This document shows, piece after piece, positions 8,842-63,344 of a stretch of 63,760 nucleotides of DNA; the stretch's first letter is position 1, and every line of letters begins with the position of its first letter. The stretch is from a virus. The notes beneath the pieces are model-generated. The model saw only the letters and a program-made list of their open reading frames with translations. It was not told the DNA's origin and ran no database searches. The stretch spans positions 1 to 63,760 of the IMG/VR virus record IMGVR_UViG_3300036791_001402. The stretch is one strand, 5' to 3'. The position numbers and the translations under genes are program-made.

Positions 8842-9038
8842 GAGGTCTCCTTAGTGGTCCTGATCGCGATTACGCGGCCGGCGGGGTCGGTGACGCGATG
8901 AATGACGGTGCGGGTAGGTCTGGGTTCGTTCAGGTGGAAGCGGACGCTGTCGGGCCGGAAGCGGCATTCGATAGCGGGGTCGTGGTCGGCCTCGCACCAC
9001 GGGCAGGAGGGCAGGATGTGCGCCGGTCGGGTTCTCAT
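8838..9038 (-). CDS. Small Cys-containing protein
   Basis: The start at 9038 (MRTRPAHILPSCPWCEADHD) overlaps the stop of the upstream gene. The 66-residue product has CPWC plus a downstream Cys, a minimal zinc site. Function unknown. Confidence 0.65.
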   Translation of the reverse strand: MRTRPAHILPSCPWCEADHDPAIECRFRPDSVRFHLNEPRPTRTVIHRVTDPAGRVIAIRTTKETS

Positions 9039-9532
9039 TTGCTCATCTCCCACAGGAAGGATTTCCCGACGACGACGGGTTGCACTGTGACACCGTTCCA
9101 CTCGCGGAGATCATCGAAGGTGGTGATCTCCGGTTGGAAGCCGGGATAGACCGTCTCCCGCCATTTAGTGAAAACCAACCGCTGGGCTTCCTTGCGGTCA
9201 TGCGAGATCGCCATCACCGTATAGCCCCCGGCATCGCACATGCCCACGAAGACCGTCTCAGGTTCAGGTTGACGGTCGGGGGCGGCGACCTCGCGAGGGA
9301 CGACCGGATGGAGTCGGGCCATAAGGGCTTCGCGTTTGGCACGACCAGCGGCTAAAGCGGTTTCGCGGTCAGGGAAGGGTTTGTTGTCGCCGACGCTGAT
9401 GAAGCGCAGGAATTTGGTGAAGGGTTTGCCGGTGCGCTTGTTTCGCGCTGTCATGTATTCCCGAATCGAGCAGTAGAATCCGCCGATCCCTGATGCGCTG
9501 GTTCCGATCTTGTAACGCTCACTTGCTTTCAT
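9035..9532 (-). CDS. Hypothetical protein behind ribozyme A
   Basis: The start at 9532 (MKASERYKIG) is chosen because the longer frame would run through ribozyme A. GGAAAGAGA precedes this ATG. The 165-residue product has an integrase-arm-like or single-strand-binding-like N-terminus (FYCSIREYMTARNKRTGKPF), a variable middle, and a small alpha/beta C-terminal domain. It is the first gene of an eight-gene coupled run down to 6868. Function unknown. Confidence 0.7.
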   Translation of the reverse strand: MKASERYKIGTSASGIGGFYCSIREYMTARNKRTGKPFTKFLRFISVGDNKPFPDRETALAAGRAKREALMARLHPVVPREVAAPDRQPEPETVFVGMCDAGGYTVMAISHDRKEAQRLVFTKWRETVYPGFQPEITTFDDLREWNGVTVQPVVVGKSFLWEMSK

Positions 9533-9544
9533 AGTTCTCTTTCC

Positions 9545-9597
9545 GTGCCATTGGTTGAAGCTCAGGTGCGCCACGCGAAGGCTGGACACTTGCACCC
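9545..9597 (-). ncRNA. HDV-like self-cleaving ribozyme, copy A
   Basis: Read on the minus strand, P1 is GGGUGC/GCACCU, with a G-U pair at the predicted cut between 9598 and 9597. P2 is GUG(U)CCA/UGGCAC with one bulged U. P3 is GCC/GGC with loop UUCGCGU. The 13-nt joining segment ends ACCAA, placing the catalytic C. P1 and P2 differ from the other copies yet still pair. A CCCGGA/UCCGGG hairpin (9599-9615) lies one base before the cut. The Shine-Dalgarno GGAAAGAGA follows at once. Confidence 0.85.
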
Positions 9598-9622
9598 GCC
9601 CGGATTCGCTCCGGGGCAGCGG

Positions 9623-9862
9623 TTAATCTGCGTCCTGCATCCAGCGTGGATGGTCGTCGCGGATGTCGTCTATCGTGTAGCGCCCCACGCGTTGCATGAG
9701 GATCTCGTTAGCCTGAGACTCAAATCCCGTTGCCACTTCGAGAATGGGCGCATGGAAGCTATTGCCATTGCGACGGTGAGGGATTCCATGCTTGTCGAGT
9801 TGCCGTTCAATCCACGACAGTTTCGGTTCGTTGGTTCGCTTGCAAAACAAGACATAGTCCAT
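9623..9862 (-). CDS. Hypothetical protein
   Basis: This 79-residue alpha/beta protein (MDYVLFCKRTNEPKLSWIER) has a start that overlaps the upstream stop as TAATG, with GGGGGTAAG in front. It is the second cistron behind ribozyme B. Its end lies just before the hairpin of ribozyme A. Function unknown. Confidence 0.7.
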   Translation of the reverse strand: MDYVLFCKRTNEPKLSWIERQLDKHGIPHRRNGNSFHAPILEVATGFESQANEILMQRVGRYTIDDIRDDHPRWMQDAD

Positions 9863-10350
9863 TACTTACCCCCTTTGTAGATTGCCAAGGCGGTTTCCAT
9901 GGGCAGCAGGTTGAGGATCTGGACCGCCTTTAGCTTGGCGGGGGTCTGGGGGTCGCGCAGATAGGTGCCGACCTGCGCGGGAGTCAGTTTGCGGGTCTCG
10001 AAGATGCCCTCGCTGCCGACCTTGGTGAAGAGGATCTTGTTAGTCATGGCGCGTTTCAGGTCTTTGGCTAGAAGGTGATCTTCGAGCAGGTCGCCGATAA
10101 GGATGTCGGCATCCTGCGGGTAGGTTTCAGTCGTGCCGTCGCCCATGTCCATGGCGACCGGCGGGAGCGTGGCGGCATACTCGGCCAGGCGGGTTTCCAG
10201 GGCGAAGGGCTGATAGAAATTCGGGCCGCCGTGCCCGTCGTTGCGGACGTCTCCAGCACGTTTGCCGTCGATGTAGATGGTGGCCTCGAAGCAGTGGGTT
10301 TCCTCAGAGGCGAATGCCGCCCGTTTGATGTTCCTGAGTTCGATCTTCAT
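9862..10350 (-). CDS. Hypothetical protein behind ribozyme B
   Basis: The start at 10350 (MKIELRNIKRAAF) follows ribozyme B and GGAAAAGAG. The longer frame upstream is read-through over two genes. The 162-residue product begins with a beta-rich domain (CFEATIYIDGKRAGDVRNDGHGG) seen in other phage hypotheticals. It continues as an alpha-helical half (NKILFTKVGSEGIFETRKL). Function unknown. Confidence 0.72.
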   Translation of the reverse strand: MKIELRNIKRAAFASEETHCFEATIYIDGKRAGDVRNDGHGGPNFYQPFALETRLAEYAATLPPVAMDMGDGTTETYPQDADILIGDLLEDHLLAKDLKRAMTNKILFTKVGSEGIFETRKLTPAQVGTYLRDPQTPAKLKAVQILNLLPMETALAIYKGGK

Positions 10351-10364
10351 GAGTTCTCTTTTCC

Positions 10365-10417
10365 GCTTGATTGGTTGACGCTCAGTCCCGCCGACGTGAA
10401 GGCTCAAGCTTGGGACC
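10365..10417 (-). ncRNA. HDV-like self-cleaving ribozyme, copy B
   Basis: P1 is GGUCCC/GGGACU, P2 GCUUGA/UCAAGC and P3 GCC/GGC with loop UUCACGUC. The joining segment is 13 nt and ends ACCAA. The predicted cut is U-G at 10418/10417. A short CCGG/CCGG hairpin (10423-10433) lies upstream. The element overlaps the last codons and stop of the preceding gene (stop at 10382-10384), so cleavage would leave that message without a stop codon. Confidence 0.87.
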
Positions 10418-10708
10418 ATCCCCCGGAATCCGGTACTCGCGTTCAAGGCGTTCGTTCGATGCCTTGACCATTTCGACCGTGAGCGGGGGTTGCGGCTTGA
10501 ATCCCTCCAGCTTGCGCTCCACCCAATAGAGGACTGCGGTACGGGTTCCGGTGTAGCCCTGAAAGACTCCATCGAACGTGTAGATGACTCCGGGGTCGGG
10601 TTCGGGATAGTCGGCATATACGGCATCAGCGACCGTGACCTTGTGACCTTTGACCGTGGTTTGCATCCATTCGCCGACGACGCGGAAATCGGATAAGCGG
10701 CATCCCAT
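10382..10708 (-). CDS. Hypothetical protein overlapping ribozyme B
   Basis: This 108-residue protein (MGCRLSDFRVVGEWMQTTV) has an ATG that directly follows the upstream TAG. A small beta domain (GVIYTFDGVFQGYTGTRTAV) is followed by a helical end. The last dozen codons and the stop are embedded in ribozyme B. Function unknown. Confidence 0.65.
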   Translation of the reverse strand: MGCRLSDFRVVGEWMQTTVKGHKVTVADAVYADYPEPDPGVIYTFDGVFQGYTGTRTAVLYWVERKLEGFKPQPPLTVEMVKASNERLEREYRIPGDGPKLEPSRRRD

Positions 10709-11023
10709 CTATTTGCCCTCCGTGAGTGCAGCCAAGGCTGAAGCGATGTTGTCGCCCTCATAGAGGGTCTGGCAGAGTTCAGGTGGGTAATCCTCAAATC
10801 CGCCGACCGCCTGATAGACGCGATAGCGGGGCAATGCCATCTCCCGCTGATCCGGGTCGGGATGGTCCGACCAGATCTCGCGGGAGTCGATGGGGTCGGG
10901 GGTAACGAAGCGGGGGCAGACGTCGTTGTGCCACGATTCGTCGCTGAGCTTACCTGATTGAACGAGGGAGAGGATCTCCGGGGGAACGTTGTAGTCGGAT
11001 GCGAATTCTTTACGCCATGACAT
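10709..11023 (-). CDS. Hypothetical protein behind ribozyme C
   Basis: This 104-residue protein (MSWRKEFASDYNVPPEILSL) starts 16 nt after the last strand of ribozyme C, with GGAAAGAGA as ribosome site. It resembles a phage hypothetical group with NDVCPRF and short alpha/beta content. Its TAG abuts the next ATG. Function unknown. Confidence 0.7.
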   Translation of the reverse strand: MSWRKEFASDYNVPPEILSLVQSGKLSDESWHNDVCPRFVTPDPIDSREIWSDHPDPDQREMALPRYRVYQAVGGFEDYPPELCQTLYEGDNIASALAALTEGK

Positions 11024-11039
11024 GCTGTTTTCTCTTTCC

Positions 11040-11091
11040 GCTGATTCGGTAAACGCTCAGTCCCGCCCCGTGAAGGCATCAGCATGGGACC
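11040..11091 (-). ncRNA. HDV-like self-cleaving ribozyme, copy C
   Basis: P1 is GGUCCC/GGGACU, P2 GCUGAU/AUCAGC and P3 GCC/GGC with loop UUCACGG. The joining segment is 13 nt and ends ACCGA, matching the CGA of HDV J4/2. The predicted cut is U-G at 11092/11091. The upstream hairpin is seven pairs, CCCCGGA/UCCGGGG (11095-11113). GGAAAGAGA follows. Confidence 0.88.
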
Positions 11092-11120
11092 ATGCCCCGG
11101 AATGACTCCGGGGGTTAGTG

Positions 11121-11603
11121 CTACGCCCTCACGGTCGCACCGTGGGCCACAGACGCGTTATAGATGGCATCTACGACCGCTGCCAGATCAATGCAGTCGG
11201 TTCCGACCTCGACCCATACCCCGTTGCCGTCGCCGACCAGACCGCCGTCGGCATCGCTGTCGTCCGCGCCCCATTTGTCGCCTGAGGTTCCCCACACCAG
11301 TTCGCCCTTGTCGGTCTTGAGAACGGAGACGCACCAGATGCCCCCGCCCGTGTGCATCAGACCAGCGGTCAGTCTTTTTGCGGTCAAGGCCGAAGCGATG
11401 GCCTCCATCCATTCGGTGCCGTAGTCTTCGCGGACGGATTCGCCCAGACCTTCCTCGACTTCGTTGAGCATGTCGGTGAGCCATCCGGCGACGGTCTCGC
11501 GGACAGGGTCGTTTTCTTCAGCGGGGATCTCCGCCTGATTGTCGAGCCAATTGCCGACGAGGTCATAGAACTTCTGGGCGCGAATCCTGTTCAGTGTGTC
11601 CAT
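11121..11603 (-). CDS. Hypothetical protein behind ribozyme D
   Basis: The start at 11603 (MDTLNRIRAQKFYDLVGNWL) follows ribozyme D with GGAAAAGAGA. The 160-residue product is helical and acidic in its first half. Its second half is glycine- and aspartate-rich (GDKWGADDSDADGGLVGDG), with beta strands and a possible calcium-binding look. Function unknown. Confidence 0.7.
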   Translation of the reverse strand: MDTLNRIRAQKFYDLVGNWLDNQAEIPAEENDPVRETVAGWLTDMLNEVEEGLGESVREDYGTEWMEAIASALTAKRLTAGLMHTGGGIWCVSVLKTDKGELVWGTSGDKWGADDSDADGGLVGDGNGVWVEVGTDCIDLAAVVDAIYNASVAHGATVRA

Positions 11604-11620
11604 CGTGTTTTCTCTTTTCC

Positions 11621-11672
11621 GCTGATTTGGTTGTCGCTCAGTCCCGCCACGAGAAGGCATCAGCTTGGGACC
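11621..11672 (-). ncRNA. HDV-like self-cleaving ribozyme, copy D
   Basis: P1 is GGUCCC/GGGACU, P2 GCUGAU/AUCAGC and P3 GCC/GGC with loop UUCUCGU. The joining segment is 13 nt and ends ACCAA. The predicted cut is C-G at 11673/11672. The upstream hairpin is eight perfect pairs, AUCCCGGC/GCCGGGAU (11675-11693). GGAAAAGAGA follows the last strand. Confidence 0.9.
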
Positions 11673-11699
11673 GTATCCCGGCATGGCCGGGATGGTTGC

Positions 11700-12026
11700 T
11701 CAGGCGAAGGTCTTGAGCCACGCTGCTACGATCTCTTCATGGATATCGACGTCGCTCGACAGCGTGGTTGATTTCGACTCATGCGTCTCGCCTTCGTCGT
11801 AGGCTTTGCGGGAAGCGTAGACGTCGCCATCCCACGTCTCATTGGCGTCTCCGAATGCGACCACGGTCCCGTCGGGCATGTCGGTAATGATGACCGTCAC
11901 GTTGCTGTCGGCGAGGGATTCGCTGGGGAATCCGTGAGCGGTGAGTTGCTTGGCGACCCAGTCCATTTCGGCGAGGTGGGTCGAGAAGGCGTTGTCGTCC
12001 ATTGCTTCATATTTCGCGATGCTCAT
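11700..12026 (-). CDS. Hypothetical acidic protein behind ribozyme E
   Basis: The start at 12026 (MSIAKYEAMDDNAFSTHLAE) lies behind ribozyme E and AGAAAAGAGA. The 108-residue acidic protein has a central beta segment (NVTVIITDMPDGTVVAFGD). A DNA-mimic or regulator role is conceivable, but no family is recognised. Confidence 0.7.
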   Translation of the reverse strand: MSIAKYEAMDDNAFSTHLAEMDWVAKQLTAHGFPSESLADSNVTVIITDMPDGTVVAFGDANETWDGDVYASRKAYDEGETHESKSTTLSSDVDIHEEIVAAWLKTFA

Positions 12027-12040
12027 TGGTTCTCTTTTCT

Positions 12041-12093
12041 GCCTGATTGGTAGTTGCTCAGTCCCGCGAACGTGAACGCTCAGGCGTGGGACC
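12041..12093 (-). ncRNA. HDV-like self-cleaving ribozyme, copy E
   Basis: P1 is GGUCCC/GGGACU and P2 GCCUGA/UCAGGC. P3 is GCG/CGC, a compensatory change from the GCC/GGC of other copies, with loop UUCACGUU. The joining segment is 13 nt and ends ACCAA. The predicted cut is U-G at 12094/12093. A CCCC/GGGG hairpin lies at 12096-12107. AGAAAAGAGA follows. Confidence 0.89.
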
Positions 12094-12109
12094 ATCCCCG
12101 TGAGGGGAG

Positions 12110-12262
12110 TTACTGCAACTCGTCCGCTGGACGGTCCCAGTTGATGCTGTTGACGAAGGTGTCCTGAAAGTCGTGCCCACAAGTGTGTTGGGCGTATTGG
12201 TGCGCGTAGTTGTGTGTTTTGCAGGAATGTGTACCTGTGATGCAGTTGGTAGGCAGGTTCAT
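12110..12262 (-). CDS. Small His/Cys-rich protein behind ribozyme F
   Basis: This 50-residue frame begins at 12262 behind ribozyme F and GGAAAAGAGA. It is rich in His and Cys (CKTHNYAHQYAQHTCGHDF), which suggests metal binding. It ends just before the ribozyme E hairpin. The ribozyme-coupled start is the main support. Confidence 0.65.
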   Translation of the reverse strand: MNLPTNCITGTHSCKTHNYAHQYAQHTCGHDFQDTFVNSINWDRPADELQ

Positions 12263-12276
12263 CGATTCTCTTTTCC

Positions 12277-12328
12277 GCACATTCGGTAGTTGCTCAGTCT
12301 CGCCACGTGAAGGCATGTGCTTGAGACC
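12277..12328 (-). ncRNA. HDV-like self-cleaving ribozyme, copy F
   Basis: P1 is GGUCUC/GAGACU, a compensatory change against the common GGUCCC/GGGACU. P2 is GCACAU/AUGUGC and P3 GCC/GGC with loop UUCACGU. The joining segment is 13 nt and ends ACCGA. The predicted cut is U-G at 12329/12328. A CCCC/GGGG hairpin lies at 12331-12343. GGAAAAGAGA follows. Confidence 0.9.
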
Positions 12329-12349
12329 ATCCCCGCAAAGGGGAAAAGG

Positions 12350-12562
12350 TTAGTCGATTAGCGCGTCAATGGTTTGGCGTGCATAGTTCCACGATTGAGT
12401 GGACGGAACGCGATGAATCATCTGCCCGTCTTTTTCAATCCACATGTCGCCCGTGAGTGCATTGCGACGAACGAGGTATCCGCGATAGGCCATGCGGGAA
12501 AAGTCGACAGTCTGCAATGCTGCCAACGCTGCCATACTGCGATAGGTACGCTTAGTGGTCAT
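12350..12562 (-). CDS. Hypothetical protein
   Basis: The start at 12562 (MTTKRTYRSMAALAALQTVD) has GAAGGATT upstream and lies after a hairpin. The 70-residue product is basic with a short beta pair (YLVRRNALTGDMWIEKDG). It is the only downstream cistron here preceded by a plain hairpin instead of a ribozyme or a coupled start. Function unknown. Confidence 0.65.
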   Translation of the reverse strand: MTTKRTYRSMAALAALQTVDFSRMAYRGYLVRRNALTGDMWIEKDGQMIHRVPSTQSWNYARQTIDALID

Positions 12563-12577
12563 GAGTGGTAATCCTTC

Positions 12578-12601
12578 TACCCATGATATCCCGCATGGGT
12601 A
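12578..12601 (-). promoter_or_regulatory. Intercistronic hairpin beside a ribosome site
   Basis: TACCCATG (12578-12585) and CATGGGTA (12594-12601) form eight pairs around an eight-base loop, ending just before the Shine-Dalgarno of the next gene. There is no U-run, so processing or translational control is more likely than termination. Confidence 0.5.
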
Positions 12602-12614
12602 CGGCATTCAAGAG

Positions 12615-13343
12615 TTATGCTGCGATGGAGATCTGAACCAATTGGGCGACAGGGACCACGAATCCGCTCGTGTCTTTCTTTGCTGGACCTTTAGCGCGTA
12701 GTCCAATGACCGAACCCTTGTATCCGTCCAGAAAACGAAGGTCGTGCAAGTCGCCGTCAATGACCGGACGTCCAAGGAAAGTCGAAGGCAGGGGGGAACC
12801 TTTCTTTGTGTCGAAAACGACTGCCACATTCAACCCATGGTCCAATGCACGCATGGTCTCGGCTTCGTTGGTCTCAGAATGAGAAAACGTCAAGTGATAG
12901 TTCGGAGTAACGCGTTCCCATGCGCGTGCATGCTTCGTATAGTCGTAGAAAACCACGTTCGGGAATTCGCTTGCCATCATCAAAGCTAACCATGGAAGGT
13001 CGGACGTCCCATTGACCCGTACCGCAGGGATAAGCTTTTCCCGTTTAGCCTTGCGAATTAAAGCTTCAATCGACCAACGCATCGAAGCAAGGAATCCTTC
13101 CCTGTCATCGAACAGAAAGTGAGTCTTCGCAATGCGCTGCCGCACTATCGTGGGGAATGCTCCCCGTCCAGCTTTGAACAAACAAACGTTGCGGCATCCT
13201 TCGCTCGAATCAGTGCAGAGGTTCCCGCGTCCACCCTCAGAAGCGGGGGCAAGGTAAAGAATCCCGGTTAAATATCCCAAAGACTCGCCCTTGCTAGTCT
13301 TCGCATTTTCGGTGGTCAATAGTGCGCGATACTTCGTTGTCAT
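12615..13343 (-). CDS. Phage protein of a conserved uncharacterised family (LYLAP/GTSD/YDYTK motifs)
   Basis: This 242-residue protein follows ribozyme G. It has motifs I recognise from a widespread phage family of unknown function: LYLAPASEGGRGNLC, GCRNVCLFKAGRG, VRVNGTSDLPW, VVFYDYTKHARA, LTFSHSETNE, AVVFD and VIDGDLHDLRFLDG. The conserved Cys, Asp and His residues look catalytic, but no activity is known to me. The length is typical and the frame intact. Confidence 0.82.
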   Translation of the reverse strand: MTTKYRALLTTENAKTSKGESLGYLTGILYLAPASEGGRGNLCTDSSEGCRNVCLFKAGRGAFPTIVRQRIAKTHFLFDDREGFLASMRWSIEALIRKAKREKLIPAVRVNGTSDLPWLALMMASEFPNVVFYDYTKHARAWERVTPNYHLTFSHSETNEAETMRALDHGLNVAVVFDTKKGSPLPSTFLGRPVIDGDLHDLRFLDGYKGSVIGLRAKGPAKKDTSGFVVPVAQLVQISIAA

Positions 13344-13357
13344 TCCGTCTCTTTTCC

Positions 13358-13409
13358 GTCGATTCAGTAGTTGCTCAGTTCCACCACGTGAAGGTATCGA
13401 CTTGGAACC
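13358..13409 (-). ncRNA. HDV-like ribozyme, copy G, with C-to-U at the presumed catalytic base
   Basis: P1 is GGUUCC/GGAACU, P2 GUCGAU/AUCGAC, and P3 ACC/GGU with loop UUCACGU. All three helices carry compensatory changes against the other copies. The 13-nt joining segment ends ACUGA instead of ACCRA, so the presumed catalytic C is U and cleavage may be weak or lost. The predicted cut is U-G at 13410/13409. A CCCC/GGGG hairpin lies at 13413-13424. GGAAAAGAGA follows. Confidence 0.85.
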
Positions 13410-13427
13410 ATTCCCCCGCAGGGGAGG

Positions 13428-13646
13428 TTAGAAAACACACCAACGGACTATGTCATTCCACGACCATCCCGAACGACCTAACGCGTCCAATATCCGCTGG
13501 GTTTGAAACAACTTGTCTTCCCCAGCCATTTCGACATAGACATGTGCCGTACCTTCGCAAGTGACATCCAACCCACTCGCCCTCAAACGTTGTGCGGCAG
13601 ACTCAACTACAGTCGGACCACAGTAAACCCTGTATCGCGATGTCAT
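13428..13646 (-). CDS. Hypothetical protein, first gene of the ribozyme operon
   Basis: This 72-residue protein (MTSRYRVYCGPTVVESAAQR) has an alpha/beta pattern like small nucleotide- or RNA-binding folds. It is preceded by GAAAGGAAAGGG and by a TATAAT box. It is the promoter-proximal gene of the minus-strand operon, so it may be the most strongly expressed. Function unknown. Confidence 0.7.
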   Translation of the reverse strand: MTSRYRVYCGPTVVESAAQRLRASGLDVTCEGTAHVYVEMAGEDKLFQTQRILDALGRSGWSWNDIVRWCVF

Positions 13647-13693
13647 TTTTCCCTTTCCTTTCTGTCTCTTGCACCGTCTTTGCTGCCCTAACC

Positions 13694-13699
13694 ATTATA
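13694..13699 (-). promoter_or_regulatory. Probable -10 box of the ribozyme operon promoter
   Basis: The minus strand reads CGTATAATGG here, a perfect TATAAT about 48 nt upstream of the first gene of the operon. The -35 region is poor (GATAAA at 17-nt spacing), so an activator or phage factor may be needed. Confidence 0.55.
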
Positions 13700-14319
13700 C
13701 GGGTAAATCGGACGAATTTATCATCTCTCTACACATTTATTCCAACTATTTTCGACCATCCTAGTGTTGATTCGATTGCATTTATCCATAGCACGTGCGC
13801 CTGGTAAACGCGTTTTCAAAAATGCGACAGCTCTGTCGCTTTTTCAAACGTGGGAACCACTTCGTTTTTCGTTTTTCGGAATGCCATAGACGGCGAAAAT
13901 CTAGACCGCTAATTATGCTCAATCCGACCGGTCGCCCGGTCGCAGATCTGAGGGCGATCTGAGGTCTCAAAATTCGGTTTAGCAGCCTTTTGGATTGTCG
14001 CCCGGAAGGTCGATTGTCGAGTCGTTTGCGCCTAATCCGTAGAATTGGCGCGGACACTGTAAATACGGGGGAATCTGAGGGCGACGACAGGTCGGGGAAT
14101 ACTTGGAAAGAGGTTCCCATGGGGGCGACCTGTCGTTTTCGGGGGCTTGGGTTTGGTTTGGCGCGGGATTCTTTGTCCGCGACCCGCCGGCCGCTCGTCG
14201 ACGGCGACGCCTTCAGCCTTTCGATCCGCGAAAAACAAAAAAATAAAAAATGGGAAAGGTTAAAAAGCGGGAGTATAGTTTGTTTCCATGAATTGGGAAC
14301 CATAAAAGGGAAGCAATAA
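13700..14319. other. Divergent noncoding control region
   Basis: No convincing gene is seen in these 620 bases between the minus-strand operon and the plus-strand block. The stretch holds a dyad GCGACAG-CT-CTGTCGC (13824-13839) with T5 runs on both sides. It has a tandem CCGGTCGC pair (around 13928-13943), two 12-bp copies of ATCTGAGGGCGA (13946-13957, 14073-14084), a long stem-loop at 14084-14136, an A-rich tract at 14231-14250, and a TATAGT at 14274-14279. It probably holds promoters, operators and terminators. Confidence 0.6.
14084..14136. repeat. Long stem-loop in the control region
   Basis: ACGACAGGTCG (14084-14094) pairs with CGACCTGTCGT (14126-14136). Inside the loop GGGAA pairs with TTCCC. 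TTTTC follows on the plus strand. It may be a terminator, an attenuator or a protein-binding cruciform. Confidence 0.6.
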
Positions 14320-14763
14320 ATGGGAAACCTGAAAATGGACACCATGAAGATTTTGCGTTGCAAGCGATGTGGACGGGAGTGGTGTTCGCGGCGGGAGCAT
14401 CCGGTTCGGTGCGGGGTATGCCGGTCGCCTTACTGGGATCGGGAGAGGAGGGGGAATGGAAGTGGATCTGAAGTTATTGAGCGCGGGGTTGGTGGAGTGG
14501 CGGGAGCAGTTGCGGACGGAGGTGGGGACGGAGTTGCGGTGTCCGTTTTGCAAGAGGCCGAGGGTGCGAAGGAGCGATTACATTCGGTGCAATCCGTGTG
14601 CGACGAACTGGCTGGACGAGGAGCGGGGGTTGCGGGATTATCTAAATCGCGACCCGGGGGCGGCAAGGGCGGAGGGGCGGCGAGGTGCGATAAGCCTGGT
14701 CACAGCGGATTCCAGCGGACGGACGGGTGGTGGTGCAACCAGTGCGGGGTGATGTACCGGTGA
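14320..14763 (+). CDS. Zinc-ribbon protein with a second ribbon at its C-terminus
   Basis: The 147-codon frame starts at ATG 14320 behind AAGGGAAG. Residues 12-40 form a clear zinc ribbon (CKRCGREWC, CGVCRSPYW) of a type usually seen as a 50-60 residue phage protein. Residues 50-118 are Gly/Ala-rich and overlap another gene in a second frame. The last residues (TDGWWCNQCGVMYR) look like another zinc ribbon. It may be one long protein, or two short ones joined by a chance open frame; the terminal parts are the best supported. Confidence 0.6.
   Translation: MGNLKMDTMKILRCKRCGREWCSRREHPVRCGVCRSPYWDRERRGNGSGSEVIERGVGGVAGAVADGGGDGVAVSVLQEAEGAKERLHSVQSVCDELAGRGAGVAGLSKSRPGGGKGGGAARCDKPGHSGFQRTDGWWCNQCGVMYR
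14456..14752 (+). CDS. Zinc-ribbon protein nested in another frame
   Basis: ATG 14456 has GAGAGGAGGGGGA in front. The 98-residue product has RCPFCKRPRVRRSDYIRCNPC, a four-cysteine zinc ribbon (about residues 25-46), then a helical acidic segment. It lies wholly within the previous frame, so both cannot be under normal constraint over their full lengths. The central part of this frame looks more protein-like than the overlapping one. Confidence 0.65.
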   Translation: MEVDLKLLSAGLVEWREQLRTEVGTELRCPFCKRPRVRRSDYIRCNPCATNWLDEERGLRDYLNRDPGAARAEGRRGAISLVTADSSGRTGGGATSAG

Positions 14764-14843
14764 GGGTGGTTTATCAAAATGAGAAAGGTTGACATGCTGG
14801 GAGGCGGGGCGTGGGATAGTGGGCAGGAAATGGAGGTGGAGTT

Positions 14844-15203
14844 ATGAAGTTGACGGAGGATGAGTGCCGGTATGTGTATCGGGCGGGGTTGGGGCGGGTA
14901 CGGACGGAGGGAGAGGACTACGACGTGGTGGTGGGTAGGTGTTATGTGGAAGCGGCGGCGCGGTTGGTGTTGAGTCCGGCGGGGGTGGAGGAGTTATCGG
15001 GGGCGGACGGGGCGATGTGTGCGTTGGAGTTGGTGAACTGGTTTTTGTTACGGAGGCTGGAGGGGGTGTTGAGGAGGGACGATCCGAGGGAAGCGGTAGT
15101 GGCGAGGTTGTTGGACGAGATGGGGGTGGAGAAGGAATCGGAGTTGCGGGACGCGGTGGTGGTGAAGGGGTTTCTGGCGGAGTTGGATGCGGTGACGAAG
15201 TGA
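14844..15203 (+). CDS. Hypothetical helical protein
   Basis: This 119-residue, mostly helical protein has an acidic N-terminus (MKLTEDECRYVYRAGLGRVR). A 22-codon frame at 14779-14847 ends in an ATGA overlap with its start and may couple translation. The coding strand here is very G-rich, like the whole 14.3-18.4 kb stretch. Function unknown. Confidence 0.7.
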   Translation: MKLTEDECRYVYRAGLGRVRTEGEDYDVVVGRCYVEAAARLVLSPAGVEELSGADGAMCALELVNWFLLRRLEGVLRRDDPREAVVARLLDEMGVEKESELRDAVVVKGFLAELDAVTK

Positions 15204-15514
15204 ATTGCGGAAACCAGAGTTGCGGGGCGGAGCTGGACGCGGATCACACGGTGCTGGTCACGACGACGCATGCGCGGCATTTCTGTTCAGTGGAATGCCT
15301 GACAGCAAGCCACGACGGCCATGTGGCGGGATTGGTGGATCCGGGTTTCAAGGAGTTGGTACAGAGGGCTATTTGCAAGCTGAACCGGGAGCAGGACCGG
15401 GATCCGAACTGCATGTGGCATGAGATTGAAGTGGCGCTGCGTGAATGTGGGGAGCAGTACGGGTGCGATCAGGAAGCACGCTGGGAACGGGATGCGGTGC
15501 CGGGGGCGGGGTGA
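15200..15514 (+). CDS. Zinc-binding small protein, GTG start
   Basis: The GTG at 15200 overlaps the preceding TGA. The 104-residue product opens with CGNQSC and has CSVEC near residue 30, a probable zinc site. A helical half (FKELVQRAICKLNREQDRD) follows. Function unknown. Confidence 0.7.
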   Translation: MNCGNQSCGAELDADHTVLVTTTHARHFCSVECLTASHDGHVAGLVDPGFKELVQRAICKLNREQDRDPNCMWHEIEVALRECGEQYGCDQEARWERDAVPGAG

Positions 15515-15518
15515 AGCG

Positions 15519-15854
15519 ATGCGGTGTTTAACACAGGCGGCGAAGGCATTGTTTGACGGGGCGGGTTACGAGCCGGAGCGGGACAATGTGCGCTTGCTGT
15601 CGCAGCACGAGCGGGTGCGGGATCTGATGCTGGACGGGGAGTGGCGGGGCTTGGAGGAGATCGCGGGATTGACGGGAGACCCGGCGGCCAGCGTGAGCGC
15701 ACAGCTCAGGCATCTGCGGAAGGCGAGGTTTGGGGGGTACGTGGTGACGCGGAGGTACAGGGGCGAGGGGTTGTACGAGTACCAGGTGAGGAAGCCCGAT
15801 CCGGTGGACTCGGGGATGGGGTGGTTGTTTGCGGACATGGAGAAGGAGGGGTGA
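15519..15854 (+). CDS. Winged-helix DNA-binding protein
   Basis: The start at 15519 (MRCLTQAAKALFDGAGYEP) follows GGGGCGGGGTGA. Residues 30-95 read as a winged helix: RVRDLMLDGEWRGLEEIAGL, then a recognition helix PAASVSAQLRHLRKARFG and a wing YVVTRRYRGEGLYEYQV. Phage proteins of this form resemble MarR/ArsR-type domains and may regulate transcription or recombination. It is coupled to the next gene by TGATG. Confidence 0.75.
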   Translation: MRCLTQAAKALFDGAGYEPERDNVRLLSQHERVRDLMLDGEWRGLEEIAGLTGDPAASVSAQLRHLRKARFGGYVVTRRYRGEGLYEYQVRKPDPVDSGMGWLFADMEKEG

Positions 15855-16030
15855 TGGCGAACTGGATTGGCAAGGCGACGGCGGAGATGAGGCGCAAGGG
15901 GACGGAGGGAAGTTTCGGGAAGGCGACGGCGAAGAAGATCAAGCGGGGGTTGAAGGAAGGCGGGAAGCGGGCCAAGAAGGCGGGGTTCGCGAAGGCCATG
16001 AAGACCATCGCGGCTAACCGGAAGGGGTGA
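15854..16030 (+). CDS. Small highly basic protein
   Basis: This 58-residue protein is about one-third Lys/Arg (KKIKRGLKEGGKRAKKAGFA). It begins in an overlap with the previous stop. It may bind DNA or RNA. No family recognised. Confidence 0.65.
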   Translation: MANWIGKATAEMRRKGTEGSFGKATAKKIKRGLKEGGKRAKKAGFAKAMKTIAANRKG

Positions 16031-16031
16031 G

Positions 16032-16220
16032 TTGAACGAATCAACAAAAACTGTAGTAGTAAATCGGGGTCTGCGTCCGGGGGTGGATGCATGCCGGTTT
16101 TGTGGCGGTTTACATTTCGGCAGCGGGTTGGTGTGTCCATACATTTGCGGCAAATGTTTCAAAGATATCAGGCAAGAATCTGAGGATCCCTGCCTATGCG
16201 GACAGGAAGGATTGAAGTGA
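16032..16220 (+). CDS. Zinc-finger small protein, TTG start
   Basis: The 62-codon frame from TTG 16032 has CRFCGGLHFGSG, CPYICGKC and a late CLC, a cysteine arrangement for two zinc knuckles. It ends in an overlap with the next GTG. Function unknown. Confidence 0.65.
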   Translation: MNESTKTVVVNRGLRPGVDACRFCGGLHFGSGLVCPYICGKCFKDIRQESEDPCLCGQEGLK

Positions 16221-16681
16221 TCGAGATTGAGAAGAGCATTACGGCGGACACTCGGTCCTGCGATTACAGCAAGGTGACCAAGGACCAGCTACACCAGAGC
16301 AGCGTCCAGCACATTAACGATGTCAGGAAGGCTCTGGGCTTTTTTTGCGAACAACTCCACCTCGCCAGTCTGCGGCACGACTACGACAAGCTGACGGAGA
16401 TTGACTGGTTCCACGCCGACTTTGTGACCGGGTTCAAGGAGACGGGGTGGTGGGACAACCACCGCAAGGTGAACCGCCACCACTTGCTCGAGGCGGACGG
16501 AGTGCCGGAGGACGTGAACCTCGTGGACGTGCTGGACATGATCGCCGACTGCGTGATGGCGGGGATGGGGCGCACGGGGACGGTGTACGCGCTGAACATC
16601 GAGCCGGAAGTGCTGATGAGGGCGTTCAGGAACACGGTGGAGTTGCTGAAGGCGCAGGTTCGGGTGAAGGACGAGGCGTGA
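16217..16681 (+). CDS. DUF5662-like protein, HD-like
   Basis: The GTG at 16217 overlaps the upstream stop. The 154-residue product has HINDVRKALGFFCEQL, RHDYDKLTE and VNRHHLLE followed by DVLDMIADCVMAG. This His-Asp pattern is typical of the DUF5662 group of phage proteins. The arrangement resembles an HD phosphohydrolase site, but the activity is not established. Confidence 0.75.
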   Translation: MIEIEKSITADTRSCDYSKVTKDQLHQSSVQHINDVRKALGFFCEQLHLASLRHDYDKLTEIDWFHADFVTGFKETGWWDNHRKVNRHHLLEADGVPEDVNLVDVLDMIADCVMAGMGRTGTVYALNIEPEVLMRAFRNTVELLKAQVRVKDEA

Positions 16682-16800
16682 TGACCTGGCTGGTCGCATT
16701 GGCGGGATGGCTGGCGCTGGGCGGAGTGGAGGCGTGGGTCATCTGCTGGTGGGAAGAGCGGAGGCGGAGATGGACCGGGAATGGTTCAGGCAGAGGATAA
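16681..16800 (+). CDS. Tiny membrane protein
   Basis: A 39-residue frame starts in an overlap with the previous stop. It has one hydrophobic segment (LVALAGWLALGGVEAWVICW) and an Arg-rich end. It is small but the coupling supports it. Confidence 0.5.
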   Translation: MTWLVALAGWLALGGVEAWVICWWEERRRRWTGNGSGRG

Positions 16801-16976
16801 GGCGGGAGCTGGCGCTGCGGCATCTGGTGGACCACAACCTGCGGGTGCTGAGGCGGGGCTACACGGCAAGGGACTGCACGGATGCGGTGGCGGAGGCCAT
16901 CTGGCGGCTGGTTGAAGAACAGGCCAGGGAGCGCGGGGCGGGGACGGAGAACGAGGGTGTACCGCTGCAGCACTGA
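16770..16976 (+). CDS. Small helical basic protein
   Basis: This 68-residue frame (MDREWFRQRIRRELALRHLV) has GGAGGCGG upstream and overlaps the previous gene by 31 nt. Largely helical and basic. Function unknown. Confidence 0.6.
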   Translation: MDREWFRQRIRRELALRHLVDHNLRVLRRGYTARDCTDAVAEAIWRLVEEQARERGAGTENEGVPLQH

Positions 16977-17040
16977 AGATATCGGGGTGCCGGACGGTGT
17001 GCGTTGGAACGGCGCCGTCCGGGTTTTTTCGGGGAGCGGG

Positions 17041-18459
17041 ATGGCGGCTTACTACAACGAGAACGATGGGGCCAAGGCGGCGTGGCTCAGGGAACTGGTG
17101 AAGGCGGGACTGATCGCGGCGGGAGACGTGGACGAGAGAGGGATCGAGGATGTCCGAGCAGATGAGCTTGTGGGATACCGGCAGTGCCACTTCTTCGCCG
17201 GGGTCGGAGTCTGGAGCTACGCTCTCCGGTGTGCGGGGTGGGAAGACGAAAGGGAAGTCTGGACGGGATCGTGTCCCTGCCCGAGCTTCAGTGCCGCCGG
17301 AAAAGGCCGAGGGTTTGGAGACCCTCGTCACCTCTGGCCTCATTGGGCGCGACTCATCGGGGAGCGTAAGCCTCCAGTGCTCTTTGGAGAGATGGTTAAT
17401 GCCGCGATTGGACATGGCTGGTTCGACCTTGTTCAAACTGACCTGGAAGCACAGGAATACGCCGTTGGGAAGGCGGTATTTGGCGCATGTGGCGTCGGCG
17501 CACCGCACATCAGGATGCGGCTCTACTTCGTGGGCGAGTGCATGGCCCAGTCCCAATCGTGGGGACGACAACAACAGTCGCATCCCGCTGGAGAATATTC
17601 AGGCCTATTCGGAGCGCAGATTGTCGCGGGAGAACGCCTGCAGCCAACTGGCGGACACCGCCCAGGCGCTGGCGGCGTGGCCCACATGCGCGGCCTCAGA
17701 CGGCAACGGGGGGAAGGGGCCGCGTCACGGGATGAGTCCGACGGGACAGATGCCGGACGGCACGAAAGCGACGGTAGACCTGTCGGCGGCAGCGAAGATG
17801 CTGGCCGCATGGCCCACGCCCAACGCGATGGAGGGAGGGCAGACCTCGCGGAGCGGGGAGAGGAAGGACGAAGTGCTGATGGGCGGCATGGCGAGACTGG
17901 CGTCGTGGCGCACCCCGGACAGAACGGATTCCGACCGCGGCGTTCATCCTCACCCCGACGCTCAGGCGGGAAGCCATTCGCTGGTAACGGAGTCGGGGCT
18001 GGCGTCGTGGTCCAGCCCCAGCGCGAGGGACTGGAAAGATACTCCGGGGATGGCGACCACGGGGACCGATCCCGACGGGACGGAGCGGGAGAGGCTGGAC
18101 CAGTTGCCGCGTCAGGCGCATCTGAGCGGGTGGCCCACGCCCATGGCGGGGAGTCCGGCGACGGAGGAATACAACGAAGCGGGGAACAACGATTCCAGCC
18201 GCAGAACGCAAGCGTTGGTAATGGAAGTGGACGGCCCGGTGCGGTTAACGGCTTCTGGCGAGATGCTGACTGGCTCCGCTGCCGGGATGGACGGTGGCGG
18301 CCAGCTCGACCCGGCACATTCCCGCTGGTTGCAGGGACTGCCGCCCGAGTGGTGCGACTGCGGGGTTACGGCGATGCGCTCTGCGCGCCGGCCGCGCAAG
18401 CCTTCATCGAAAGCTACATCGACGCCTGTCAGGAAAGGGAAGTGAACGATGGCGTATGA
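17041..18459 (+). CDS. DNA cytosine-5 methyltransferase
   Basis: The start [19 protein letters not shown] is the usual opening of this phage group. Motif I is [14 protein letters not shown] (residues 49-62). Motif IV is GSCPCPSFS with catalytic Cys80. A motif-VI-like FGEMVN lies at 115-120 and motif [17 protein letters not shown] at 153-165. The conserved end [18 protein letters not shown] gives motif X. Residues 170-410 are low-complexity Gly/Arg/Asp/His and correspond to the target-recognition position. A second long gene occupies that same DNA in the +1 frame. It probably protects phage DNA from restriction. No partner nuclease is seen next to it. Confidence 0.9.
17150..18445 (+). CDS. Nested overlapping gene in the +1 frame: WPTP-repeat phage protein
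   Basis: A 431-codon frame lies wholly inside the methyltransferase gene. Its product starts [20 protein letters not shown]. It has [18 protein letters not shown] near residue 90 and then repeated units of the form [11 protein letters not shown] ([43 protein letters not shown]). It closes with [20 protein letters not shown] recognise this as a recurring phage family, and other members also lie across cytosine methyltransferase genes. The repeats and unbroken length argue for real dual coding. Function unknown. Confidence 0.75.
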
Positions 18460-57102: not shown

Positions 57103-57732
57103 CTAGGCGGTATAACACCAGGCCATCGAGTCGGCACTATAGAGCAGGGAACGGATGACCCCGGACTCGAGCGAGGTCCGCTTCAATCCGAAACCGTGCA
57201 ACCGCAGATCCGGCCTCCTGAGCCGGATGGCGACCAGAACATCGCGGACCTTGAGCGGCGTTCCATTCCTCTTGCACACCGAACCGACGCCCACCCACAT
57301 GTTCTGCCTGAGCCGCTCCCCGTACATCTCGATGTGGCGCTGATACTCTGCGGGGTCGTATCCCTGCAGCACCGGCATGATGTACACGCCCGTGTCCTCG
57401 CGCAGCAAAGCGTCGTAGCGTTCGATGGTCAGGCGCTGGTGGTCCTCGACCGTCATCCCGGTGCGCTCGAGCATGTGGGGTTCGCACATAAAGTCCTGAG
57501 TGACAGCCGCCAGTAGCGTTCCGCAGTGCTTCCACTTCCTGATCTGAGCCGCGTACTCGCTCACCGGGAAGGGATAGCCGCCGTGCTTCTCGATAGTCGA
57601 GAACGCCCCGGAATCGAGGATCCACCGGTTGACCTTCATCGACCTGCGGCACCGCAGACGGTGGATGGAGATGAAGGCATGGTCGATGTGCCGTGCATCA
57701 GAAGGCTGGTGAAGTCCGGTGAAGAAGATCAT
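57103..57732 (-). CDS. DpdA-like DNA transglycosylase, ending at an amber codon
   Basis: The start at 57732 (MIFFTGLHQPSDARHIDHAF) overlaps the upstream stop. The 209-residue product has tRNA-guanine-transglycosylase-type motifs: WILDSGAFSTI (as in the DSGGFQ aspartate loop), LLAAVTQDFMCEP, VYIMPVLQGYDPAEY and MWVGVGSVCKRNG. Phage DpdA proteins put 7-deazaguanine bases into DNA and thereby resist restriction. The gene stops at TAG (57103-57105), but its frame continues for another 38 matching codons. No queuosine-precursor genes are present, so the base would have to come from the host. Confidence 0.78.
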   Translation of the reverse strand: MIFFTGLHQPSDARHIDHAFISIHRLRCRRSMKVNRWILDSGAFSTIEKHGGYPFPVSEYAAQIRKWKHCGTLLAAVTQDFMCEPHMLERTGMTVEDHQRLTIERYDALLREDTGVYIMPVLQGYDPAEYQRHIEMYGERLRQNMWVGVGSVCKRNGTPLKVRDVLVAIRLRRPDLRLHGFGLKRTSLESGVIRSLLYSADSMAWCYTA

Positions 57733-62465: not shown

Positions 62466-63344
62466 ATGAGTATTCGTTTGATGTCCCGTGTCTGGGACGA
62501 TGCCCCATTCGACGGCGCAACTCTGTTAACCCTCCTGGCTCTGACTGATTCTGCCAACGACGAGGGGTGGTGCTGGCCAAGTATTACCACCCTGATGCAC
62601 AAGACCCGACAAGGTAACTCCACGGTCTATCGTTCCATCGCTGAACTCATCGAAAGCGGCTGGCTGGAGAAGTACAAGGAGGACCAGGATGGGGTTATTC
62701 AATATCGGGTTTTGTATCCTGAGGATCGGGTACAAGAGGCGCAAATAGCTGACGATGTGGATTCTCCCACAGAGAATAACTCTCTCCCAGAGAGAAAAAT
62801 CAGTCTCCCACAGAGAAAACGGATTCTCTCACAGAGAAAACCCCCACACCCCCTTAATGGAAGAACCGTAATAAAAGCAACCGTAAGAGAACCATCAGTG
62901 ACCCCTTCTCCTGCTCCGCCGGAGGTAAAGCTTCCGGCTACGCTGGGTTCTTCCCCAGACCCTTCCCCAGAAGAACTACAAAAAATGCCTCCAAGACAAC
63001 GAGCTATCAGGGCCATGAAGATCTGTTTTTTCCCGTACTACTGCGAGGTATGCGAACAGAACCCGAAGGTCTATACGCTGACCCAATTGCGGATTGAGAA
63101 GGGGGTGGCTCGATACCTGGAGTGCCTGAAGAAGTGCGATGGCGACTGGGCTAAAGCGGGGGACATGTTCTATGCCGCCATGGATGCTCTGTCCCAGTCG
63201 GACTTCCACATGGGGCGGAACGAGCGGGGTAAAAACGGGAACGGCAAAAAGTACGTCGACTGGGTTTCCAATCTCTGCAATTCCCAGGAAAAGTTTGAAA
63301 AATGGCTGGTAGCTGCGCCACTAGAGGAAGCGGCATATGCCTGA
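62466..63344 (+). CDS. Replication initiator, O-like, with HTH domain
   Basis: The 292-residue protein starts MSIRLMSRVWDDAPFDGATL and has an N-terminal winged helix (LLTLLALTDSANDEGWCWPS then NSTVYRSIAELIESGWLEKY) like phage O/DnaD-type initiators. Four iterons lie inside the gene near codons 99-125 (SLPERK and SLPQRK in protein). This recalls the lambda O gene, which contains ori. The C-terminal part has a Cys pair CEVCEQ and a helical segment. It precedes the DnaB-type helicase with an overlap. Confidence 0.82.
   Translation: MSIRLMSRVWDDAPFDGATLLTLLALTDSANDEGWCWPSITTLMHKTRQGNSTVYRSIAELIESGWLEKYKEDQDGVIQYRVLYPEDRVQEAQIADDVDSPTENNSLPERKISLPQRKRILSQRKPPHPLNGRTVIKATVREPSVTPSPAPPEVKLPATLGSSPDPSPEELQKMPPRQRAIRAMKICFFPYYCEVCEQNPKVYTLTQLRIEKGVARYLECLKKCDGDWAKAGDMFYAAMDALSQSDFHMGRNERGKNGNGKKYVDWVSNLCNSQEKFEKWLVAAPLEEAAYA
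62762..62838 (+). repeat. Four iterons: predicted replication origin inside the initiator gene
   Basis: Imperfect copies of TCTCCCACAGAGAA start at 62763, 62783, 62804 and 62825, 20-21 bp apart, that is two helical turns. Each is a partial dyad of the form TTCTC-N5-GAGAA. An AT-richer stretch (CCGTAATAAAAGCAACCG) follows at about 62867. This is the layout of a lambda-type ori. Confidence 0.8.

Follow-up and report, generated by a model that had tools for sequence, protein, structure and literature searches.

Seven putative HDV-like ribozymes, each ahead of a ribosome-binding site, in a single phage operon

Seven elements of 52–53 nt in one phage operon are probably active P4-less HDV-like ribozymes with a role in processing a single polycistronic mRNA. 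All seven lie on the minus strand of a 63,760-nt viral sequence (IMG/VR record IMGVR_UViG_3300036791_001402; hereafter the window). Sequence comparison demonstrates their fold, conserved catalytic core, position and orientation. The same comparison places them in a module, new here and shared by several phages, in which a hairpin is followed by the putative ribozyme and then by a Shine-Dalgarno sequence and start codon.

The original prediction had located all seven by eye, and direct reading finds each at its predicted position. Ribozyme 1 (13358–13409), which precedes a GP88-like gene, reads GGUUCC AA GUCGAU ACC UUCACGU GGU GGAACU GAGCAACUACUGA AUCGAC and has its predicted cut between 13410 and 13409. 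This ribozyme and ribozymes 2 (12277–12328), 4 (11621–11672) and 5 (11040–11091) were found both by a structure descriptor (P1, J1/2, P2, P3, L3, P3′, P1′, a junction ending CNRA, P2′) and by a covariance model trained on 19 elements. Ribozymes 3 (12041–12093) and 6 (10365–10417), each with an 8-nt L3, were also returned by the descriptor. Over both strands of the whole window the descriptor gave these six and no other site; the sole reason that it missed ribozyme 7 (9545–9597) is one bulged U in P2 (GUGUCCA/UGGCAC). The covariance model returned exactly seven window sites, including the three left out when it was built (ribozymes 6, 3 and 7; E 1e-12, 1e-10 and 3e-10). Dinucleotide-shuffled windows, 80 in number, gave one descriptor match in total (about 0.01 per window), and setting the catalytic position to T, A or G left no site in the window. 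Rfam at gathering thresholds has no match in the window. Its P4-bearing HDV-F-prausnitzii model (RF02682) sits exactly on two copies at 19.1 and 15.4 bits, against a gathering threshold of 44, with a sub-threshold match at 12265–12329 over ribozyme 2.

The strand order P1-P2-P3-P1′-P2′ is that of the nested double pseudoknot of HDV, and the pairs covary. P1, P2, P3 and the P1.1 mini-helix together hold 81 double-change cells compared with 18.9 in shuffled alignments, and 100% of their cells pair in register compared with at most 46% after sliding; pairing of P1, P2 and P3, though not of P1.1, was a condition for selecting the alignment rows from outside the window. The compensatory changes support the predicted retention of P1 and P3 pairing through sequence change. 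P2 also covaries and pairs in every copy, and its predicted complementarity holds apart from the bulge in ribozyme 7. The predicted L3, UUCACGU or a variant of it, is 7 nt long in most copies, the exceptions being the two 8-nt loops.

Could the elements instead be repeats that work as DNA, whether as operators, as recombination hot spots or as start-associated sequences? Mycobacteriophages have such an arrangement in their SAS/ESAS repeats, and a common core and ribosome-binding segment do recur before several starts. We consider this exceedingly improbable. P2 differs between copies (45% identity, little more than the 25–33% of the flanks) yet always pairs, and there is no DNA-level reason for such covariation. 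Moreover, the flanks are dissimilar, so the copies did not arise by recent duplication.

The residues expected of a working HDV-like ribozyme are also kept. P1.1, which pairs L3 with the strand that follows P1′, was specified neither by the earlier reader nor by our descriptor. It nevertheless covaries across the 19 elements: at alignment columns 19-20/34-35 one pair is U-A in 15, A-U in 3 and G-C in 1, and the other is C-G in 19/19. The G1-U wobble at the cut site is present in 19/19 elements, where the descriptor required it, and in all seven window copies, where it had been spotted by eye before there was a descriptor. Every window copy has the predicted catalytic C at the start of J4/2. 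Position −1 is never G in 34 elements. P4 is absent as predicted, the elements matching the minimal P4-less drz motif as written in our own structure descriptor. Everything testable by sequence agrees with, and supports, a P4-less HDV-like ribozyme.

The same holds beyond the window. As a less biased test we scanned IMG/VR with only P3 and the junction fixed, leaving P1 and P2 free. Both helices were fully paired in 24 of 25 distinct sites, compared with 14% when their mates were shuffled. With A, G or T at the catalytic position the scan gave five sites, none of them paired. These results bear on a further reading, that the elements are catalytically dead pseudoknots serving as structural leaders, for example in protein binding or to hold a ribosome-binding site open. 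Such a leader would also be selected for pairing, but for pairing alone, whereas here the wobble, the catalytic C, P1.1 and the non-G at −1 are all kept, and no fold in the collection carries another base at the catalytic position. Twister ribozymes, which share no fold with these elements, also occupy the same slot (see below). We regard dead pseudoknots as very unlikely.

The surroundings of the elements are as regular as their cores. In all window copies but one, a hairpin ends 1–3 nt short of the cut site; these hairpins lie on the minus strand at 13412–13425, 12330–12344, 12095–12108, 11675–11693, 11095–11113 and 9599–9615 (ribozymes 1–5 and 7, respectively, by folding; the last with loop region GAGCGAAUC). 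The weakest case is ribozyme 6, for which direct reading gives a stem of 4 (CCGG AUU CCGG, 10423–10433), 5 nt before the cut site, that the minimum-free-energy fold does not pick. On the other side, a Shine-Dalgarno sequence and start codon lie 12–17 nt past P2′; the purine-rich ribosome-binding segment GGAAAAGAGA directly follows P2′ of ribozyme 1 (13348–13357, minus strand), and each of the other elements is followed by it or by a close variant. Among 22 gene-preceding elements, 20 have a stem of at least 5 bp ending no more than 4 nt from the cut site (8% of random windows do), and 20 have 11–17 nt between P2′ and the start codon, with a maximum of 23. The hairpin, the Shine-Dalgarno sequence with its start codon, and P1.1 had all been overlooked by the earlier reader.

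A stable hairpin before most copies of this type might itself be the functional part, as a transcription terminator or an RNase III-like processing site, with the ribozyme secondary. However, the hairpins carry no T tracts and at none of the seven copies do they score as terminators, and their stems of 4–9 bp are short for RNase III. In addition, the array contains one promoter-like match on the minus strand, which is weak and precedes a gene without a ribozyme. This reading is most unlikely. Covariation, the kept catalytic core and the missing T tracts led us to reject terminators, dead pseudoknots and DNA repeats.

Ribozymes 1 to 7 each precede a minus-strand gene. The first encodes a 242-residue GP88 family protein (12615–13343; Pfam PF17338, E 4e-43) and the sixth a 162-residue protein with no assigned function beyond a weak phrog_17767 match (9862–10350). 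The others encode proteins with no assigned function of 50 (12110–12262), 108 (11700–12026), 160 (11121–11603), 104 (10709–11023) and 165 residues (9035–9532), after ribozymes 2, 3, 4, 5 and 7. The gene after ribozyme 5 abuts the next one with zero gap and no ribozyme, and the genes beyond that after ribozyme 7 overlap start-to-stop, again without one. Indeed, across 20 operon junctions ribozymes occupy every gap of more than 80 nt plus one gap of 31 nt, and are missing from overlapping, coupled genes. The prediction that the elements lie between genes is accurate for six copies, which are wholly within untranslated gaps; the exception is ribozyme 6, where the upstream ORF 10382–10708 reads through P1, P2, P3 and P1′ and stops inside the element. 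In another phage, G001, ORF 11084–11707 ends on the cut site, its stop codon split by the cut. Cleavage at either place would make non-stop messages.

These two ORFs count towards an alternative in which the ribozymes do cleave but lower or time expression, acting as switches rather than insulators. The cut might leave the messages open to decay, or ribosomes translating an upstream ORF might unfold the ribozyme and block the cut. Ribozymes in 5′ untranslated regions, such as glmS, destabilize mRNA, which also counts for a switch. Against it are the six copies confined to untranslated gaps, and the hairpin that would close the upstream message on its 3′ side and the ribosome-binding site right past the fold, both of which look protective. 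On balance we think a switch rather unlikely.

The module is found in phages that are otherwise distant. G001, with just weak matches to two window proteins, is nearly unrelated to the window phage and has six modules plus one Twister-P5 ribozyme. Further phages have one to four ribozymes each; as most neighbouring phages have a single copy, an array of seven is no fixed design. In one IMG/VR phage (L041) a nearly identical core lies 5 nt downstream of a tRNA. In bacterial and archaeal genomes 101 stretches matched, none with the fold plus the catalytic C. Two looser patterns, one without a fixed P3 plus AGGAG and the other CGTGGC...CTGAGC, gave no new copies; their extra loci fail the descriptor and were reused as controls. 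In Microbacterium phages ClearAsMud and NoodlelyBoi the consensus had a blastn match, which was set aside as chance (E 5, over annotated coding sequence). A terminase search of IMG/VR confirmed no relatives of the window phage. Its terminase comes closest, at 28% identity, to those of Tunturiibacter (soil) phages, from which the host is perhaps one of the Acidobacteriota; the cultured Tunturiibacter phages Tunturi_1 and Tunturi_5 have no significant element.

Other ribozymes occupy the same slot before the ribosome-binding site. Twister-P5 is found there in five records (G001, G004, G008, G017 and G018), and was above the cut-off in none of 29 control viral records; a search of the window with the same model (RF02684) found none. 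P4-bearing HDV-like ribozymes are found there in G004, G017 and G018, located by Rfam's model; our strict P4-bearing descriptor returned no sites. That such ribozymes fill the same slot suggests that cleavage itself is likely to be the function. The Twister sites have no consistent upstream hairpin, so the slot does not depend on one.

We consider cleavage in vivo very likely, and lean towards a stabilizing or insulating use. Each ribozyme would cut just before G1, between the upstream hairpin and the downstream Shine-Dalgarno sequence and start codon. Cutting would leave the upstream message with a terminal hairpin bearing a 2′,3′-cyclic phosphate, and 3′ exonucleases should be stopped there. 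A 5′-OH and a tightly folded ribozyme right before the ribosome-binding site would open the downstream message, which should resist 5′-end-dependent decay; the folded leader should also shield translation from upstream sequence. One promoter would then yield separate, individually stable messages without any protein, an outcome that we liken to that of the RiboJ insulator and of the cuts that RNase III makes between the early genes of phage T7. The stability argument draws on the decay pathways of model bacteria, which may not be those of the host.

We give roughly even credence to a broader proposal: that some phages run a protein-free mRNA maturation in which interchangeable ribozymes before the ribosome-binding site (HDV-like with or without P4, or twister) produce insulated messages of one gene each, with a hairpin capping the 3′ end and a structured 5′-OH leader. 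If true, this would be a natural counterpart of synthetic ribozyme insulators, and would show that phages had reached a design invented by synthetic biology. Few HDV-like ribozymes have a known natural function, and for many of those in phages no role has been assigned. A module that occurs as many as seven times in one operon and is replaceable by an unrelated ribozyme points to a direct, testable role, mRNA self-processing at gene boundaries. The module would also supply compact, naturally occurring parts in which the spacers are very short.

The closest known relatives are the theta ribozymes of Caudoviricetes phages, with a P4-less HDV fold of about 52 nt. As described in Kienbeck et al. 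2024 (PMC10879173), the core of drz-Mtgn-1 resembles that of the window elements in its 6-bp P1 opened by G-U, 3-bp P3, 7-nt L3 and junction (G A ... A C U A A, with the catalytic C). Theta carriers there are gut phages of Bacteroidota or Bacillota; the terminase of the window phage is nearest, at 28% identity, to that of soil phages. Most theta copies away from tRNAs lie more than 200 nt from the nearest ORF, and the main text reports no arrays (PMC10879173). By contrast, the window copies stand serially in one operon, between hairpin and ribosome-binding site. The predicted label 'theta-type' fits the fold but not the context: in no window copy does the cut lie 5 nt or less from the 3′ end of a tRNA, and a tRNA search of the window found none, so we do not file the elements as tRNA-associated theta ribozymes. 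They are most likely related to theta ribozymes without being tRNA-associated.

That serial copies were undescribed stands for HDV-like ribozymes in the searchable literature (mostly without subscription journals and preprints), where a search on their role in phage mRNA processing gave just the theta report (PMC10879173) and a hammerhead precedent. Clustered hammerheads were known by 2011: in prophages, one phage transcript can have several of them flanking a single gene or a short run of genes, and mRNA processing was proposed for them (Perreault et al. 2011, PMC3088659). HHphage of haloviruses HF1/HF2 is 13 nt upstream of a start codon, and a 5′ end has been mapped no more than 3 nt from its cut (PMC3088659). 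Those systems differ in their hammerhead fold and in the two or three ribozymes of the tested arrays, and the accessible text of that report describes no module of hairpin, ribozyme and ribosome-binding site (PMC3088659). An Rfam hammerhead search of the window gave no match. The Faecalibacterium prausnitzii HDV-like ribozyme (RF02682) has the same nested fold and cut site but has P4, and is named for a single bacterial example. Twister-P5 shares the slot before the ribosome-binding site, in G001 and four other records, with a fold and sequence unrelated to the window elements. RiboJ is a synthetic insulator, a hammerhead-derived ribozyme placed between upstream sequence and ribosome-binding site that leaves a defined, structured 5′ end. 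It is engineered and carries its hairpin after the ribozyme, whereas the window elements are natural and HDV-like, come in series and have the hairpin ahead of the cut.

According to the original prediction, the minus strand has seven HDV-like elements of 52–53 nt in the stretch 9545-13409. A direct reading of the sequence confirms all seven at the claimed places (9545-9597, 10365-10417, 11040-11091, 11621-11672, 12041-12093, 12277-12328 and 13358-13409). A structural descriptor (P1 of 6–7 bp opened by G-U, P2 of 5–7 bp, P3 of 3 bp, L3 of 6–8 nt, and a junction that begins with G and ends with CNRA) was scanned over both strands of the entire 63.8 kb window and returned six sites, every one among the seven; 9545-9597 was missed because of one bulged base in P2. 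With T, A or G in place of the catalytic C, the same scan of both strands of the window returned no site, and 80 dinucleotide-shuffled windows gave one match in total. Identity among the seven copies is 77–79% in P1 and the junction, 45% in P2, and 33% and 25% in the flanks. Since the flanks are alike only at chance level, the copies are not fresh duplications.

The proposed pairing-preserving changes are borne out in a gapless alignment of 19 elements, four from the window, four from phage G001 and 11 from other phages. All cells of P1, P2 and P3 are standard pairs, a figure of 100% that is partly by construction because pairing was among the search conditions for the non-window rows. Across P1, P2, P3 and P1.1, 13 of 17 pairs have changed on both sides, with 81 both-side-change cells observed against 18.9 in shuffles; sliding one strand out of register drops pairing below 46%. 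P1.1, the small helix that L3 forms with the strand after P1', is a hallmark of the HDV double pseudoknot. It was no part of the search conditions, yet it is U-A in 15 elements, A-U in three and G-C in one, next to an invariant C-G. The original prediction had overlooked it. HDV-like ribozymes are also expected to have a base other than G just before the cut site, and G occurs there in 0 of 34 elements.

As a check independent of P1 and P2, we searched IMG/VR with a pattern specifying the junction, P3 and a portion of L3; P2 was free, and so was P1 except for its last base. At 24 of 25 distinct sites P1 and P2 are both fully paired; shuffling the 5' and 3' halves among sites leaves 14%. In a second such check, the same pattern with a non-C at the catalytic position found only five sites in IMG/VR, none of them paired. 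The C pattern matched 101 stretches among 84,980 genomes of bacteria and archaea, none with the fold plus the catalytic C. Within the searched collections, therefore, the element occurs in phages and its catalytic base is kept. Because few sequence patterns were used on IMG/VR, the search undercounts copies whose P3 or junction letters differ, and its tally of array phages is a lower bound.

In the window copies a hairpin ends 1–3 nt 5' of the cut site (weak and slightly farther away in the 10365 copy), GGAAAAGAGA or a near copy lies directly 3' of P2', and a start codon follows 12–17 nt 3' of P2'. This shared anatomy was absent from the original account. Of 22 such elements, drawn from the window, G001 and nine further phage loci, 20 have a stem of at least 5 bp no more than 4 nt from the cut site, compared with 8% of random windows; the hairpins of the seven window copies lack a T tract, and none registers as a terminator. 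In the operon running from 13646 to 5711, ribozymes fill all gaps longer than 80 nt plus one of 31 nt, and overlapping or abutting genes have none. The sole junction of more than 50 nt in the array region that lacks a ribozyme, 12562-12610 (before gene 12350-12562), contains a hairpin formed by a palindrome (CCCATG..CATGGG) as well as a weak promoter-like match. Just upstream of the operon are a bidirectional terminator-like hairpin (13824-13839) and, on the minus strand, a possible -10 box with the sequence TATAAT (13694-13699).

The nearest terminases to that of the window, from Tunturiibacter phages, share 28% identity. Elsewhere the window has a phage gene related to queuine tRNA-ribosyltransferase (57103-57732, minus strand, phrog_1279) and, within a predicted coding region at 62759-62841, a 21-bp unit, GGATTCTCCCACAGAGAAAAC, in four imperfect tandem copies.

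Other phages have the same module. G001 (IMGVR 3300050131_000019, 77.8 kb) carries six copies, all on the same strand and spread from 9182 to 18016, their sequences quite unlike those of the window; its proteins give weak matches to two window proteins and no other similarity. Minimal elements number two in G003, at one end of a contig, and one each in G004, G005, G006, G008, G009, G010, G011, G017 and G018. In L004, two copies of one HDV-like sequence stand 143 nt apart (2144-2195 and 2287-2338), and neither ARAGORN nor Rfam shows a tRNA between them.

Other ribozymes occupy the slot in several of these records. Rfam Twister-P5 scores above gathering 18–24 nt 5' of a start codon in G001, G004, G008, G017 and G018. 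In phages with HDV-like modules it stands directly before the RBS at L044:5468-5525 (in G004), L022:1857-1920 (minus strand), L232:4973-5030 and 15222-15281, L233:8327-8386 and L234:6721-6778; all 29 control viral records lack a Twister-P5 above cut-off. A P4-bearing HDV-like element just below the Rfam cut-off (L044:11591-11661, and again in G017 and in G018) has a hairpin 5' of it and a start codon 11 nt later, and the L044 copy lies between the hairpin and an RBS; these three phages are close relatives and count as one case. At G011:112714-112781 a P4-bearing HDV-like element, also just below cut-off, is a weaker second match about 0.9 kb upstream of that phage's first. The strongest case for selection on cleavage itself comes from this sharing of the slot with an unrelated ribozyme.

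The structure, position and conservation of the elements are direct observations; we infer cleavage in the cell and an effect on message stability. A single transcript probably runs leftward from about 13,690, and every ribozyme would cut it. The upstream message would then have a hairpin 3' end, and the downstream message would start at a 5'-OH borne by a compact fold that directly precedes the RBS. Decay of bacterial mRNA by exonucleases is slowed by 3' hairpins, and attack that depends on a 5'-monophosphate spares 5'-OH ends; the outcome would be separately stable messages, as also arise from RNase III cuts in phage T7 and, comparably, from the synthetic insulator RiboJ. GAGCGNNA-like loops recur in cut-site hairpins of unrelated phages (window 9599-9615; the 13962 and 17538 copies of L021, part of G001; L044, L049 and L053), which points to some function in addition to protecting the 3' end. 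Because two ORFs extend to the cut site (window 10382-10708 and L021:11084-11707, both minus strand), ribosomes might prevent cutting in a regulatory version of the model. The stop codons of these ORFs lie inside the ribozyme or are split by the cut site (TA|G), and cleavage there would yield non-stop mRNAs.

As originally predicted, P4 is missing, and the fold matches the minimal P4-less HDV-like ribozymes. One of these, drz-Mtgn-1 (printed in PMC10879173), parses under the descriptor used for the window. Among phages this fold is represented by the theta ribozymes, many of which adjoin tRNAs of gut phages. The theta-type label holds as to kinship and not as to setting: L041, an IMG/VR phage stretch with nearly the same core, has a tRNA (362-460) 5 nt before its element (466-517), the theta-type arrangement, whereas the window copies lie away from tRNAs. 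L041 also has a sub-threshold Twister-P5 (8436-8539).

For clustered prophage hammerheads, a role in dividing phage transcripts into messages of one gene each was put forward in 2011 (PMC3088659); that paper reports their tandem cleavage in vitro and, in haloviruses HF1 and HF2, a hammerhead 13 nt 5' of a start codon. Relative to open-licence PubMed Central papers, the novelty is that the proposed transcript-cutting role falls to the HDV-like class, that the array is so large, that unrelated phages share the hairpin-ribozyme-RBS module, and that HDV-like and twister ribozymes have a slot in common.
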